A DNA stretch of 35,810 nucleotides from Gammaproteobacteria bacterium. GTDB taxonomy: Bacteria; Pseudomonadota; Gammaproteobacteria; SZUA-140. How positions within the stretch are numbered: the stretch's first letter is position 1; every line of letters starts with the position of its first letter. Below, piece after piece: positions 23,062-29,942 of this stretch. The position numbers and the translations under genes are program-made. The notes beneath the pieces are model-generated. The model saw only the letters and a list, made by a program, of their open reading frames with translations, made no database searches and was not told the DNA's origin. Location: positions 1 through 35,810 of the forward strand of contig JADLCS010000008.1 in the NCBI GenBank assembly GCA_020847075.1, in the 5' to 3' direction.

Positions 23062-24279
23062 TCAAGAGGAAAAACGCTCAAAAACCAGGGCGGCGTTCGT
23101 ACCGCCGAAACCGAAACTGTTGCTCATCACCCGATCCAGGGTGACGCCGTCGCGACAGGTGGTGACGATCGGCATGCCTTCGGCGGCCGAATCGAGGTGT
23201 TCGATGTTGGCGGATCCCGCGATGAAGTCTTTCCGCATCATCAGCAGGCTGTAGATGGCCTCGTGCACACCGGCGGCGCCGAGCGCGTGCCCGGTCAGCG
23301 ATTTGGTCGACGACATAAAGGGGATCGCGGTGCCGAACACCTCGCGAATCGCCTCCAGTTCCTTGATGTCGCCCGCCTGGGTGCTGGTGCCGTGGGTATT
23401 GATGTAATCGATCGGGCCGTCGATCGTGGCCAGCGCCTGGCGCATGCAGCGCACGGCGCCGTCGCCGGACGGCGCGACCATGTCGTAACCGTCGGAGGTC
23501 GCGCCGTAGCCGGTGATTTCGGCGTAGATCCGCGCACCGCGCGCCCGGGCATGCTCGAGCGACTCCAGCACCAGCATGCCGCCGCCGCCCGAGATGACGA
23601 AGCCGTCACGGTCGCGATCGTAAGGCCGCGAGGCGCGTTCCGGGGTCTCGTTGTATTTGGCGGAGAGGGCGCCCATGGCGTCGAACAGCAGCGTCATGGT
23701 CCAGTCGACCTCTTCGCCACCGCCCGCGAAGATCACGTCCTGCTTGCCGGACTGGATCAGCTCGCAGCCGTTGCCGATGCAATGCGCGCTGGTCGAACAG
23801 GCGGAGCTGATCGAATAGCTGACGCCCTTGATCTTGAATGCGGTGGACAGATTCGCCGAGGTCGTGCTGCCCATGGTGCGCGGGACCATATACGGGCCGA
23901 CGCCGCGCACGCCACGCTTCCGGAGCGCCTCCACGGCCTGCAGAAAATTCCGATTGGAGGCGCCGCCGGAGCCCGTCACCAGGCCGGTGCGCGGATGCGA
24001 CACCTCCTGCTCCCGCAGCCCCGCGTCCGCGATGGCCTGCGCCAGCGCGATATGGCCGAAGGCCGCGGCGTCCCCCATGAACCGCAGTACCCTGCGATCG
24101 ATGTGTTCGGCCGGATCCAGCCGGATCGGGCCATAGACCCGGGAACGCAGCCCGAGTTCGGCGTACTCCTCGCTGTAGGCGATGCCGGAGCGGCCCTGCC
24201 GCAGAGAGGCGGTAACCTCCTCCGCATCGTTCCCGAGGCTCGATACGATGCCCAGCCCTGTGACTACGACCCGTCGCAT
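23062..24279 (-). CDS. fabB: 3-oxoacyl-ACP synthase I
   Basis: FabB elongates unsaturated acyl-ACP made by FabA. The 405-residue product has the catalytic residues C161 ([10 protein letters not shown]), H296 (THGTSTQ), K326 and H331 ([11 protein letters not shown]), offset by exactly two from E. coli C163, H298, K328 and H333. The C-terminal [10 protein letters not shown] block is present. AGGGG precedes the ATG. It starts 14 bases after fabA: the canonical gammaproteobacterial fabAB operon for anaerobic unsaturated fatty-acid synthesis. Confidence 0.97.
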
Positions 24280-24293
24280 GATCCCCTGTCGAC

Positions 24294-24812
24294 TCAAAAA
24301 CTGTCCTTGGAAGTGAACAGCCCCACCCGCAGATCGCTGGCCATATAAATCTGCTGTCCGTCCGCCTCCAGCACCGCGTCGGCGATGCCCATGACCAGTT
24401 TGCGTAAAATAACCCGTTTCAGCTCGACGCGGTAGGTCACGAGGCGGGTTTGCGGGGTGATCTGCCCCGAAAACTTCACATCGCCGGCGCCCAGGGCCCG
24501 CCCCTGCCCCGGCTGACCCAGCCAGCCGAGGAAAAACCCCACCAGTTGCCACATGGCGTCGAGCCCCAGACAACCCGGCATGACGGGATCCCCCTCGAAG
24601 TGGCAGGCGAAAAACCAGAGCTCGGGTGTGATATCCAGTTCGGCGACGACCTCACCCTTGCCGTGGCGCCCGCCGTTCTCCGTGATGCGCGCGATACGGT
24701 CGAACATCAGCATCGGGGGCAACGGCAATTGTGCGTTCCCCGGCCCGAACAACCGGCCGTGACCGCATTCGAGCAGATCGGCCTTGGAATAGCTGTCTTT
24801 TTTTGATGACAC
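24294..24812 (-). CDS. fabA: 3-hydroxydecanoyl-ACP dehydratase/isomerase
   Basis: FabA dehydrates 3-hydroxydecanoyl-ACP and isomerises the product to cis-3-decenoyl-ACP. The sequence closely follows E. coli FabA, with catalytic H71 ([12 protein letters not shown]) and D85 ([10 protein letters not shown]). I place the start at a GTG at 24812, which gives 172 residues, identical to the E. coli length, and aligns [10 protein letters not shown] with its N-terminus. Upstream in-frame ATGs would add 21-28 unrelated residues and lie at or before the likely transcription start. No good Shine-Dalgarno precedes the GTG. Confidence 0.95.
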
Positions 24813-24888
24813 GGAATCTTGGCGTTTTATGAAAGGATTCGGACACCCCGCCCCTTCGTGGCCGGGTTCTGACATTGGAACCATCGTC

Positions 24889-24897
24889 ATTATCACA
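24889..24897 (-). promoter_or_regulatory. Candidate fabAB promoter -10
   Basis: On the minus strand TGTGATAAT reads as an extended -10 (TGn then GATAAT), about 75 bases upstream of the fabA GTG. The -35 is weak. Its position argues against the upstream ATG starts of fabA. Confidence 0.4.
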
Positions 24898-24955: not shown

Positions 24956-24983
24956 ATAAAAACCCCGTCACGAAGACGGGGTC
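24956..24983 (-). terminator. Intrinsic terminator of the histone-fold gene
   Basis: Arms CCCCGTC (24963-24969) and GACGGGG (24975-24981) with a 5-base loop are followed on the minus strand by TTTTTATT. It insulates the upstream histone-fold gene from fabAB. Confidence 0.88.
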
Positions 24984-25109: not shown

Positions 25110-25301
25110 TCAGGAAAAATCCCTGTCCTTCACGGTCTTGCGCCCGTCATTGCGCGCATTCTCGATCGCGCGATCGCACATCTCGCGAATCTTGTCCGAC
25201 ATGACGTCGAAGACGCCCGACGAGGTATTCATCTCGGATTTTTCGCGTATGTAGGTTTTGATCTTAGAAGCCACTACTAGAACTTCCTTCTTATCCGTCA
25301 T
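25110..25301 (-). CDS. Bacterial histone-fold protein
   Basis: The 63-residue basic/acidic protein fits a single histone fold. Helix 1 is about residues 6-21 (VLVVASKIKTYIREKS), loop 1 is EMNTSS, helix 2 about 27-51 (GVFDVMSDKIREMCDRAIEN onward), loop 2 is RKTV and a very short helix 3 is KDRDF. RKTVKDRD matches the histone RxTxxxxD signature (the Arg-Thr pair and Arg-Asp clamp) exactly. Short histones of this kind are known in Bdellovibrio (Bd0055) and some other bacteria, where they bind DNA as dimers. I chose the ATG at 25301 because AGGAG lies nine bases upstream. The gene is monocistronic, with its own promoter and strong terminator. Its in vivo role is unknown. Confidence 0.85.
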   Translation of the reverse strand: MTDKKEVLVVASKIKTYIREKSEMNTSSGVFDVMSDKIREMCDRAIENARNDGRKTVKDRDFS

Positions 25302-25395
25302 TGCTCTGATCTCCTGGTTTGTCGCCACTGCTCGCCGTGGCATGCATGAACGCTCGACTTGGATCGGCCACGGTTGAAACCTTCACCGACGGCAA

Positions 25396-25424
25396 ACATT
25401 AGCATTTCCGATCTGATTCGACAA
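25396..25424 (-). promoter_or_regulatory. Candidate sigma-70 promoter of the histone-fold gene
   Basis: Minus-strand -35 TTGTCG (25419-25424), 17-bp spacer and -10 TAATGT (25396-25401), about 95 bases upstream of the ATG. The 8-bp inverted repeat described separately abuts the -35. Confidence 0.5.
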
Positions 25425-25465
25425 TTATCCCGCGCCGGACGCGCGATAGGCCGAAGTGGGATAAT
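25424..25465. repeat. Inverted repeat upstream of the histone-fold promoter
   Basis: ATTATCCC (25424-25431) and GGGATAAT (25458-25465) are perfect inverted copies with centres 34 bases apart, about three helical turns. The first arm touches the -35, so a dimeric repressor or looped complex could act there. Confidence 0.5.
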
Positions 25466-25534: not shown

Positions 25535-27382
25535 TTACAAGCCTTCGCGGTATTCCGCGACGACCCGGATCATCGATTGATAAAGCATTCTGGCGCAACG
25601 ATCCCAGGTCACCGTATCCGGCACCCGCACCCGCCGTTCGGGGCGCAGGACCTGGCTAGAGGCAAATCCCGATATCAGCTTGTAAATATCATTTTTATTC
25701 ATTGTATTACGGCTTTTAATTAATCTTTTTGATGTAATCAGGGCGGCATCCCCGGTGATGCGTTCGTAGCGATTGATCAGCGCGGAACGCCGCACCAGAT
25801 CCGCGAGCAGGCGGGCGCGGGAACGCCCGGAGACCTCCACCGCGCGATCGAGCAGGCGGAGATAGATCTCCTGGAAACGGTCGATACGGCGGCGACGCGC
25901 CGGATACACCAGGACATCCTCGCGCGAGGCGTATTTCGAACGCATGATGCGGATGAATTCATGGGCATCAACCCGACCCTCTCCCGCCTGATACCGGACC
26001 GGCAGTTCCCGCAGGACATCCCGCATGCAGAATACCGCGTCCCAGGTCACGCCATCGGCGATGTCATAGGGACCCCGCTTGGACTTGGCGCGTTCGAAAT
26101 AGGAAAAAACCCGGCCGAATCGGCGCAGATCCTCCCGGAATCCGGCGTCGGCCAGCAACCGCCGATGCAGTTCGGGCGCATAACCCAGTTTGTACAACAG
26201 CAGCTCTTCGCGGTGCGCCGCGAAGGCCGCATCGAACGATCGCAGCGCGGCGTCGGCGCGGAAGCCCTTGATATTCTTTTTATGCCCGCTGATCAGGCCG
26301 TCCGCGATCTGGGCGAAGGCCTGCACGACGTAACGCGCCTTGGCGCGCTGCTCCCGGATCGTGGTCGACATCCGATCGACGTCGTCATAGCGGTATTCAT
26401 GATGAAACAGACCGAACTGGCGCAGGGAGCCGTAGTCGATGATGCCGCCGTCCATCAGGATATTGTCGCCGTCCCAGTCGATCCAGCAGAAAATGTACTC
26501 GCTCTCGAAACGCGCGGCCATGCGGCCGAAGTCGGCGGCGATGCGCTGCGCCAGATAGCGGTACGCCCGCGCCCCCGACAACGGCGCGGGCCAATCCCCG
26601 TTGGCGGACTGGCGCGCGATGTAATAGTCGACGACCTGTCTGAGCGAGTTCAGATTGCCCTGCTTGAGGTGGTGCAGGAAATGGGCGGGGCGGAGCAGAT
26701 TGGGATAGGCGCGCACGCTGATCGCGCTGCCGTCTCCGTAGTCGATGATCGCGAGCGTGCGCTCCGTCTTGACGCCGTTTCCATGCAGGACCTCGCTCAT
26801 CATAGCCGCGGCGACGCCATCCCACAGGTCGGCGAGCCCGCTGCCATAGGACGCATCGACGTCACCGGTTCGAAAAAACTTCTTCTCCCTGCCGCTGGCC
26901 GGGCTGAGTCGGGTGACGCCGGTGCCGCAACTGGAAACGTCCCAGGTCGTCCGCCGCCCTGTGACGCACCCGTTCCAGATACTGCGGCCATCACCCGAGG
27001 TGAGCCCTTTCCGGCTGGGATGCTGGAGCTGGAGATAGCGCGTCGCCATGTAGGGTTTCGGACGCGCCTGCGCGAGCAGCTCCGGATGGTGCATGAGGTC
27101 GTATTCGTTGATTATCTGCAGGCTGAAGGTGTCCAGCACGATCCGGGTCAGGGCGGGGGTCATCGCGTCGGGATGCGCGCGCGGGATCAGGCCCATCTCG
27201 CGCGCGAGGGCGAAATTGAAATAGAACACCCGCCCGCCATCGCGGAACCTGACCGGATAATCCACAAAGGCGCCAGGGACGGCCTCCTTGAAGGGATGGC
27301 TGCCGTCGAGTTTGCCGAAACCGCCGTAACTTCCCGTCCAGCGACACGAAGTACGTGCGGATTCCACCATGGACTTGCCCAT
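25535..27382 (-). CDS. Divergent SelO/YdiU-like protein (UPF0061 superfamily)
   Basis: The 615-residue protein resembles SelO pseudokinases, which transfer AMP to proteins. Matching blocks are GDGR (130-133), WDVSSCGTGVT (147-157, like the WxLKGAGxT loop), VRAYPNLLRPAHF (223-235, like the RVAPSxxRFGxFE segment) and WDGDNI...IIDYGS (303-319, like NTDN...LDYGP). Both arginines (R224, R231), the D-N pair and DYG are kept, but the loop lysine aligns with C152 and the helix glutamate with Ala. Activity is therefore uncertain. The start is the ATG at 27382 after GGAG at very short spacing; the ATG at 27370 is an alternative. It follows the DUF1631 gene after 55 bases. The last 60 residues include an AT-rich patch. 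Confidence 0.72.
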   Translation of the reverse strand: MGKSMVESARTSCRWTGSYGGFGKLDGSHPFKEAVPGAFVDYPVRFRDGGRVFYFNFALAREMGLIPRAHPDAMTPALTRIVLDTFSLQIINEYDLMHHPELLAQARPKPYMATRYLQLQHPSRKGLTSGDGRSIWNGCVTGRRTTWDVSSCGTGVTRLSPASGREKKFFRTGDVDASYGSGLADLWDGVAAAMMSEVLHGNGVKTERTLAIIDYGDGSAISVRAYPNLLRPAHFLHHLKQGNLNSLRQVVDYYIARQSANGDWPAPLSGARAYRYLAQRIAADFGRMAARFESEYIFCWIDWDGDNILMDGGIIDYGSLRQFGLFHHEYRYDDVDRMSTTIREQRAKARYVVQAFAQIADGLISGHKKNIKGFRADAALRSFDAAFAAHREELLLYKLGYAPELHRRLLADAGFREDLRRFGRVFSYFERAKSKRGPYDIADGVTWDAVFCMRDVLRELPVRYQAGEGRVDAHEFIRIMRSKYASREDVLVYPARRRRIDRFQEIYLRLLDRAVEVSGRSRARLLADLVRRSALINRYERITGDAALITSKRLIKSRNTMNKNDIYKLISGFASSQVLRPERRVRVPDTVTWDRCARMLYQSMIRVVAEYREGL

Positions 27383-27437
27383 GGCTCCTATATCGGATAT
27401 CCCGGAGCGGTGCTTTAAACCGGAAGGGACACGGCGC

Positions 27438-29942
27438 CTAGGCGTGGCGCACCTGATGCGCCTGATGACGGGGGCGCGCAAACTTCATGATCCCGGAGAT
27501 GACGCCGTCCAGCGCGCGATCGAACAGGGCGACGTTCTCGATCACCCGCGCGGCGCCGTTCCTGAATTCCTCCGCCAGAACGTACAGGGGCCGTTCCGCG
27601 ACCACCTTGTACTGGCGGTTGACGAAGGAATAGTTGGAATAGGCATCGCCGGCCCAGGCGAGCTTGACCCGCCGTTTCCCGCCGTCGGGGTCGGTCAACT
27701 CGACCCAGTCACCGAGCGCGAGCCTGCGCACGCGCTCGGTATGGACGTCCTCGATCCGCGGCCCCCCGTCGCTTTCCGTCTCGAAGCCCATCTCCGCCAT
27801 CATCTGATCGAATCTGCTCTGGCGCTCCGGGTCCTCCTTTCTTTCGAACAGGTCGTCGAAACCCGAAAGCCCTTCCATGTCGATGTCGGGAAGATCCTCG
27901 ATGTCGCCGCCGATCTCCCTGAACATGCGCTCGACCTCGTCGAGCTCCGCCGGATCCGCGCCGACGGCGGCCGGCGCCGCGGCTTTCATCCGGCTGCTTT
28001 TCAGGCCGGCGAAGTGATACCGCTGGAGCACGGCGACGAATGCCTCGATCTCCTCTTCGCCACGGCCGATGCGAAGCTGGCCCTCGCGCAGGTCCGCCAG
28101 CAGGACCGGCAGCAGGACGCCGAGGCGCCGGCGCTGTTCGGCGTTCCTCTTGGGCTCCAGGCTCCAGATGAGATCGTCCATCGCGCGCAGGGCGCGGGCC
28201 CGCCAGGCCCCGTCCCGGCCCTCTTCGAGCGTAACCTCGGTGAGCAGTTGCCGCCACACGGTACCCAGGAACTCCCTCACCTCCGCCGGCACCTCCCTGC
28301 CGGCCACGCGCCCCGCGATCTCCTCGGCGACGGCGAGCCTGAGCTGCTCGAGCTGTTCGGCCTCATGAACCTCCGTGCCGATGCGCTGCTGCAGCGACGC
28401 GAAATTCTTCTTCTCTTCGTCGAGGAATGCACGGAACTCGCCCAGCACCTCCGCGAACAGGCCGACGTCCTCCTCGAATTCGCCCAGGATCCGCCGGACG
28501 ACGGCCTCCATTTTTTCATAGAGGCGATCCCGGGTCGCATCCGCTTCCTCGCCCCAACCCACGCCGGCGGAGGCGAGCTCATTGAGCAGTTGGCGAACCG
28601 GATGCGCCCGGTCACTGAAGAATTCACGATCGACGATGGCGGCCTTCAGGACCGGGATCTGCAATCTTCCGATCAGCGCCTTGACGAAATCGGGCAGCGT
28701 CCCGTCGTCGAAGATGTAATCGAAGATCATGCTGATGACGTCGATGGTCTCGTCATCGATCTGGTTGATCATCCCCGGACGGCCGTGGGCGTCGACCGTC
28801 GCGAACCGCCCGACGACGTGCTGCTTCAGACCGCCGCGCAGCAACTCGCCGGTATGTTCGACCAGGGTGGGATCGCGCTGCAGCGACGACAGGGTATCGA
28901 GCAGCATCGGGGTGGCGGGCAGGTACACGATGGCGGACGGACGCCCGTCCAGGGTCTGAGCGCCTCCCTCGGGATCGCCGGCATAGGCCCCCAGGAGATG
29001 GTGCATGGCCTGAAAGACCGGTTCCCGCGCGTCCGACTCCTGCGGCACCTGCGGGACCTCCTCGCCGAGGAAGCCGTCACCGCCGCCGCCCCCTGCTCCT
29101 CCGGTGGATCCCATCCCTCCGATGGCCCCCGTCCCTCCGGCGGACCCGCCCCCTCCACCGCCCCCCGCCCCGCCTCCGGGCATATCCCCGCGCCGGGGGC
29201 CGCCACGGCCCGCCCCCGCCGGGTGCGGGGTGGATGCGGAGGACTGGGTGCGGATCCTGGCCTTGAGCTGGGGCAGTACACCCTGCCCGATCAGGAATTT
29301 GTTCAGTTCCGCGTAGAACTCCCCCAGACCGGGGATCAACACGCGCTCGAGCAGCTTGTAGCAATGCGCCCGGGCGGGCGCCTCCAGATCCAGCGCGTCC
29401 AGGGCATCCCGAAAGGCATTGCAGAAGGCGCCCGGCTCGAACGGCAGCGTGTCGCCCGCCCCCGGCGCCAGTTCGTCATATCGCTGCGCCAGACCGAACA
29501 GCTCATCGCTGTAGCGCTCACGCAGCTTGCCGATCAGGGTATTGACGGCGAGCGATTCCTCCAGCTCGCTGTCGTCGACGAGGGACAATCCCGGCGTGGA
29601 ACCGCCATCGCCGGCGCTTCCGGATCGAGGGGCATCCGGCGCCGCCTGCCGATCGAGCCGGCGCTCCAACCGGCGCGGGAAGGCCTCGCCCAGGTCCGCC
29701 CGGCCGTTCTGAACGATGCGTAGCCCCTCGATGACCCGGCTCTGCCCCGGGCTGGCGAACACATTCGAGACCTGTTCGGCGAGGTCCTTCTCCAGGACCT
29801 CGAAGAATCGCGCGGGCAGGGTCGCGCCGTAGGCGACGGCCCGGCCGAGGCACTCGGTCAGCAGGCGTGGGGCGGAAGCCGGCGGCGTGGTCCTGCCCTC
29901 GTGATCGAATCCAGTACCGCCCTCTTCCGCGTCCATCGCCAT
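27438..29942 (-). CDS. DUF1631 family protein
   Basis: The 834-residue protein matches the DUF1631 family of unknown function, common in beta- and gammaproteobacteria. It has a helical N-terminal part (20-235), a Gly-rich linker (242-290) and a long helical middle (300-700, including DETIDVISMIFDYIFDD). The C-terminal segment around LGDWVELTDPDGGKRRVKLAW and SNYSFVNRQYKVV looks like a small beta-barrel, PilZ-like but without the RxxxR c-di-GMP motif. It has no signal peptide or membrane span. A 16-base dyad lies 29-44 bases upstream of its start. It is followed by the SelO-like gene, probably in one operon. Confidence 0.85.
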   Translation of the reverse strand: MAMDAEEGGTGFDHEGRTTPPASAPRLLTECLGRAVAYGATLPARFFEVLEKDLAEQVSNVFASPGQSRVIEGLRIVQNGRADLGEAFPRRLERRLDRQAAPDAPRSGSAGDGGSTPGLSLVDDSELEESLAVNTLIGKLRERYSDELFGLAQRYDELAPGAGDTLPFEPGAFCNAFRDALDALDLEAPARAHCYKLLERVLIPGLGEFYAELNKFLIGQGVLPQLKARIRTQSSASTPHPAGAGRGGPRRGDMPGGGAGGGGGGGSAGGTGAIGGMGSTGGAGGGGGDGFLGEEVPQVPQESDAREPVFQAMHHLLGAYAGDPEGGAQTLDGRPSAIVYLPATPMLLDTLSSLQRDPTLVEHTGELLRGGLKQHVVGRFATVDAHGRPGMINQIDDETIDVISMIFDYIFDDGTLPDFVKALIGRLQIPVLKAAIVDREFFSDRAHPVRQLLNELASAGVGWGEEADATRDRLYEKMEAVVRRILGEFEEDVGLFAEVLGEFRAFLDEEKKNFASLQQRIGTEVHEAEQLEQLRLAVAEEIAGRVAGREVPAEVREFLGTVWRQLLTEVTLEEGRDGAWRARALRAMDDLIWSLEPKRNAEQRRRLGVLLPVLLADLREGQLRIGRGEEEIEAFVAVLQRYHFAGLKSSRMKAAAPAAVGADPAELDEVERMFREIGGDIEDLPDIDMEGLSGFDDLFERKEDPERQSRFDQMMAEMGFETESDGGPRIEDVHTERVRRLALGDWVELTDPDGGKRRVKLAWAGDAYSNYSFVNRQYKVVAERPLYVLAEEFRNGAARVIENVALFDRALDGVISGIMKFARPRHQAHQVRHA
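29073..29219 (-). repeat. Glycine-rich low-complexity segment within the DUF1631 gene
   Basis: About 49 codons are mostly Gly with Ala, Ser and Thr. The GGN-rich DNA is prone to slippage. It is in frame and looks like an interdomain linker. Confidence 0.8.

Follow-up and report, generated by a model that had tools for sequence, protein, structure and literature searches.

A histone of the Bd0055/HBb type in a gammaproteobacterial family, and a double form in a sister genus

Work on bacterial histones has so far centred on Bdellovibrio and Leptospira. Histones with a truncated third helix (alpha3) fall into five classes (Schwab et al., PMC11390915), and the main holders of the bacterial dimer histones in this survey are Bdellovibrionota, Elusimicrobiota, Spirochaetota, Planctomycetota, Myxococcota_A and Chlamydiota (PMC11390915). 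Bd0055/HBb of Bdellovibrio bacteriovorus (PDB 8fvx, 8cmp, 9ezz, 9f0e) is a dimer which bends DNA and binds genome-wide without specificity; its gene resisted deletion (PMC11317129). Its binding mode is a matter of dispute: from crystals of Bd0055 with 35 bp DNA, Hocher et al. proposed that it sheathes straight DNA end-on (PMC10627809), whereas Hu et al. described a further DNA interface, saw the DNA bent in solution and noted that the two DNA-bound crystals differ in packing (PMC11317129). The alpha3-truncated fold is shared by HLp of Leptospira perolatii and HTkC of Thermococcus kodakarensis. Furthermore, there are the ZZ histones, which carry a ZZ zinc-finger domain, and the pseudodimeric DUF1931 histones of Bacteria. 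Bacterial double histones have been described as lacking the DNA-binding residues (PMC13088155, PMC12701072).

The gene treated here lies in a stretch of 35,810 nucleotides from a gammaproteobacterial metagenome assembly, which is called the window. A preliminary description had put the histone at 25110-25301. These limits are exact, but the gene runs on the minus strand, from 25301 to 25110 (ATG to TGA, 63 aa); on the plus strand a stop codon interrupts the frame. The closest relative is SJ336 (locus L028 in the list). The features of the region are:

23062..24279, minus strand: fabB, beta-ketoacyl-ACP synthase, conserved downstream neighbour (Pfam PF00109/PF02801; synteny)
24294..24896, minus strand: fabA, 3-hydroxyacyl-ACP dehydratase, conserved downstream neighbour, start uncertain (Pfam PF07977, E 1e-47; synteny)
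24961..24983, minus strand: intrinsic terminator between the histone gene and fabA, conserved in L028
25110..25301, minus strand: histone gene, 63 aa, with alpha1 11-22, alpha2 29-51, alpha3 59-62 and R54/T56/D61 (sequence, profile, AF2 and fold searches)
25309..25315, minus strand: Shine-Dalgarno sequence AGGAGAT, identical in the same-genus relative
25396..25424, minus strand: promoter-like TTGTCG-N17-TAATGT, a weak match to the consensus but part of a block conserved within the genus
25535..27481, minus strand: SelO-like protein, upstream neighbour (weak Pfam match), in the same position in L028 and L032

The good Shine-Dalgarno sequence of the preliminary description is found ahead of the start (25315-25309), and the intrinsic terminator is present as well, as a hairpin with a 9-bp stem and a T-rich tail at 24983-24961 (shuffle z -2.75). 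The promoter is weaker than had been claimed, with no site at 9/12 of the sigma-70 consensus, but TTGTCG-N17-TAATGT is conserved: this block is almost identical within the genus, while the DNA before it diverges. TTGACA, read by eye, stands at a comparable place in four orthologues of the family (L037, L043, L044, L079). The upstream DNA of the histone (25302-25437, minus strand) is, taken together, almost identical within the genus. Its leader holds the inverted-repeat-like GGTGAAGGTTTCAACC (25387-25372), and an Rfam search for an RNA leader gave sub-threshold matches only.

By sequence comparison and predicted structure, the gene encodes a true histone-fold protein, which is basic (pI 8.9). 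The RxTxxxxD signature is present in RKTVKDRD, residues 54-61, as R54-x-T56-xxxx-D61. Among proteins of the PDB the best sequence match is Bd0055/HBb (8cmp/8fvx; phmmer E 2e-14) with a full-length alignment and 30/57 identical residues, followed by Leptospira HLp and archaeal HTkC. A profile of the family likewise matches HBb (E 5e-30) ahead of every other histone; such values put the homology well beyond chance. The AlphaFold2 (AF2) model of the single chain, computed from a 48-row alignment, has a mean pLDDT of 92.7 and helices at 11-22, 29-51 and 59-62, the third thus comprising four residues, a single turn. The five best Foldseek matches in the PDB are all HBb (TM 0.86-0.94, rmsd 0.7-0.9 A). 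Sequence search, structure prediction and fold search therefore agree with the Bd0055-type histone with truncated third helix that had been proposed. Pfam PF00808 reaches 18.6 bits with the window protein, below its curated cut-off of 21.4 (HBb itself: 23.6 bits), and the NCBIfam archaeal histone model 24.4 bits with a cut-off of 50, so that annotation by the Pfam cut-off would miss the gene.

Within the alpha3-truncated histones the protein belongs to the known bacterial dimer class, of the Bd0055/HBb type. It clusters with HBb, its alpha3 has four residues in the model (59-62; 3-4 are typical of the class), its alpha2 is short (29-51), and the RKTxxxxD motif (R54, K55, T56, D61) is accompanied by the alpha1 basic residues K13, K15 and R19. 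An N-terminal ZZ zinc finger with C4 and C2H2 sites was found neither in the 63 aa nor in the open frame, which extends at most 27 codons upstream of the start. The face-to-face (FtF) residues R48/N52 (profile numbering), which make the dimer-dimer contact in HLp and HTkC, are absent; the window protein has N48 and D52. Together with HBb as best match, these two absences assign the protein to the bacterial dimer class. For the same reason a tetrameric, face-to-face histone that wraps DNA like HLp or HTkC is very improbable, although these two proteins are the next-best by sequence and fold; position 52, moreover, where D is the HBb-type residue, is D or E in 48/48 homologues. From the absent FtF residues we infer that the dimer would be the largest assembly. 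A DUF1931 pseudodimer is not indicated either, since PF09123 gives 13 bits (cut-off 21.8) and the protein, unlike the DUF1931 histones with which it shares the fold, is single-domain with one fold per chain and retains the DNA-binding motif.

The type is uncommon in Bacteria, as the preliminary description had it, but the protein is no isolated oddity; it truly belongs to a class already described (PMC11390915) and comes from a little-noticed lineage. It is nearer to the large MNTSA...GRKTVMDRDF core of its family than to HBb, which forms a long branch in the tree and differs also in its host, the window being gammaproteobacterial. The histone domain of a ZZ histone from B. bacteriovorus kdesi (L071 5001-5177) is 64% identical to the window protein, HBb 53%; the former differs in the ZZ domain, which the window protein lacks. 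That the ZZ-histone domain is the nearer one fits the reported close relation of the ZZ and bacterial dimer classes.

HBb contacts DNA mainly through ten residues (PMC11317129), which correspond here to A11, S12, K13, K15, R19, N25, S27, K55, T56 and R60. Nine of them are kept, K16 of HBb being replaced conservatively by R19, and T8 is lost to A11, where alanine is usual (36/48 homologues). The protein also retains the RD clamp R54-D61 together with D52, its helper, and S12, K13, K15, R54, K55, T56 and D61 are invariant in the 48 homologues. By analogy with HBb the protein would form a homodimer, two copies pairing via alpha2. The dimer would grip DNA regardless of its sequence, with the L1-L2 loops (N25, S27, K55, T56, R60) and with the beginning of alpha1 (S12, K13, K15, R19), so that the DNA is bent and the chromosome locally compacted. 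We thus consider the protein probably to be a dimeric, alpha3-truncated histone of the Bd0055/HBb type acting as a sequence-independent, DNA-bending nucleoid protein, with an architectural role alongside IHF, Fis and an HU-like protein.

The dispute about the binding mode of HBb speaks against bending. A protein of the same class might instead coat straight DNA end-on, as a nucleohistone sheath protecting the DNA under some condition, which is the arrangement seen by Hocher et al. (PMC10627809), and the L1-L2 residues used there by Bd0055 are conserved in the window protein. We regard this as unlikely in view of the second DNA interface, the bending in solution and the differing crystal packings of Hu et al. 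(PMC11317129).

The histone gene is under purifying selection. In comparison to SJ336 it shows 25 base differences, 20 of which fall on third codon positions (dN 0.052, dS 0.66, dN/dS about 0.08). Homologues (E 0.001) exist in 15/20 genomes of the window's order, all of one family, and in 9/10 of the good-quality ones; a separate search added one further genome, from another family. No homologue was found in 5/20 genomes of the family, so the histone may be dispensable in some members. That the gene is a chance ORF, or sits on a contaminating contig, as the fragmentation of the assembly into 101 contigs might suggest, deserves practically no credence: the low dN/dS, a same-genus genome with the histone (89% identity) in the same gene order and the presence across the order refute it. 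An origin from a virus or plasmid was rejected too: neither IMG/VR contigs nor PLSDB contain a relative, and PHROG gave no match.

Beyond the order, 12/370 genomes of a class-wide sample, from six families, have a homologue; in a phylum-wide sample it is 1/398, the window's own. A genome collection contains 477 related loci. The best 80 of these are mostly from Bdellovibrionota and Myxococcota, the others from Planctomycetota, Nitrospirota, Spirochaetota and several gammaproteobacterial assemblies. A Nitrosovibrio assembly (L033) lies beside a Bdellovibrionales sequence in the tree, and isolated matches of this kind may be misbinned contigs. The tree comprises 57 columns and is too short to settle transfer of the family's singlets. 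The order histone-fabA-fabB is kept in the genera g1, g4, g6 and g7, which argues for a long vertical residence, and within the family the gene has been inherited vertically.

The gene, which had been said to stand alone, is indeed followed by a terminator of its own, yet all four of these genera keep it ahead of fabA-fabB. This place would suit a specialised histone-fold protein, be it a local regulator, for example acting on fabA-fabB, or a component of some other complex, in place of a general nucleoid protein. The codon usage would suit it as well: codon adaptation of the histone is 0.45 (59 codons only), whereas ribosomal proteins reach 0.57-0.76 and the HU-like protein 0.78. A high-expression codon signature was not found in these 59 codons, and such middling values do not indicate high abundance. 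Nevertheless, a specialised role appears quite improbable, as the terminator separates the histone from fabA within the window's genus, relatives outside the family have no fabA neighbour, HBb binds without sequence specificity, and the DNA-contact residues are among the most conserved positions.

Classical nucleoid proteins had been expected beside the histone. The window's genome encodes IHF alpha and IHF beta, Fis (locus L130, recognised by eye from the sequence) and an HU-like protein (L143 2173-2448) with a lysine/alanine-rich N-terminal tail and a codon usage like that of ribosomal proteins; H-NS was not found in this genome. Weak HU-family matches similar to this HU-like product occur in most genomes of the family. 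Canonical HU was found neither in the window's genome nor in the other genome of its genus, which likewise has three HU/IHF-family matches only; both assemblies are incomplete (89.8% and 94%) and the absence is thus tentative. Elsewhere, canonical HU occurs in g2, g3 and g7 and in a single g6 genome. A replacement of HU by the histone as a rule is ruled out by g3 and g7 genomes with both proteins and by the g5 genome, which has neither.

In the sister genus g3, 8/10 genomes carry two HBb-type histone domains, head to tail. In six of them the doublet is one unbroken frame of about 126 codons, with RKTVMDRD in both halves; in genome G013 the N-terminus is shortened, and in G011 the doublet is split by a frame change. 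Its positions are:

L009 1501-1881, plus strand: g3 doublet, in-frame, 126 aa
L010 1297-1683, minus strand: g3 doublet, in-frame
L011, L012, L013 and L014: g3 doublet likewise

Each half of the doublet protein matches PF00808 and DUF1931 gives no match. In all three genomes examined, the neighbour of the doublet gene is of the DUF520 (yajQ) type. In the tree the halves lie near planctomycete- and nitrospirota-type sequences, apart from the family's singlets (weak support; 57 columns). Single-sequence AF2 gave a poor model of the doublet (pLDDT 50). Judged from its sequence, a double form with the DNA-binding motif in both halves looks unusual compared to the main-text literature, supplementary tables aside.

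A vertically inherited gammaproteobacterial histone beside IHF and Fis, scoring below the Pfam cut-off, means that annotation by cut-off misses such genes. The HBb-type histone could be a long-standing architectural protein of this family, which occurs in g3 as a covalent double with both motifs, unlike DUF1931, and which may partly stand in for canonical HU in the window's genus; we put this forward tentatively, as a possibility somewhat short of even chances. One bacterial family offers a natural comparison of single and fused histones, and the fused form of g3 is the part most worth following.
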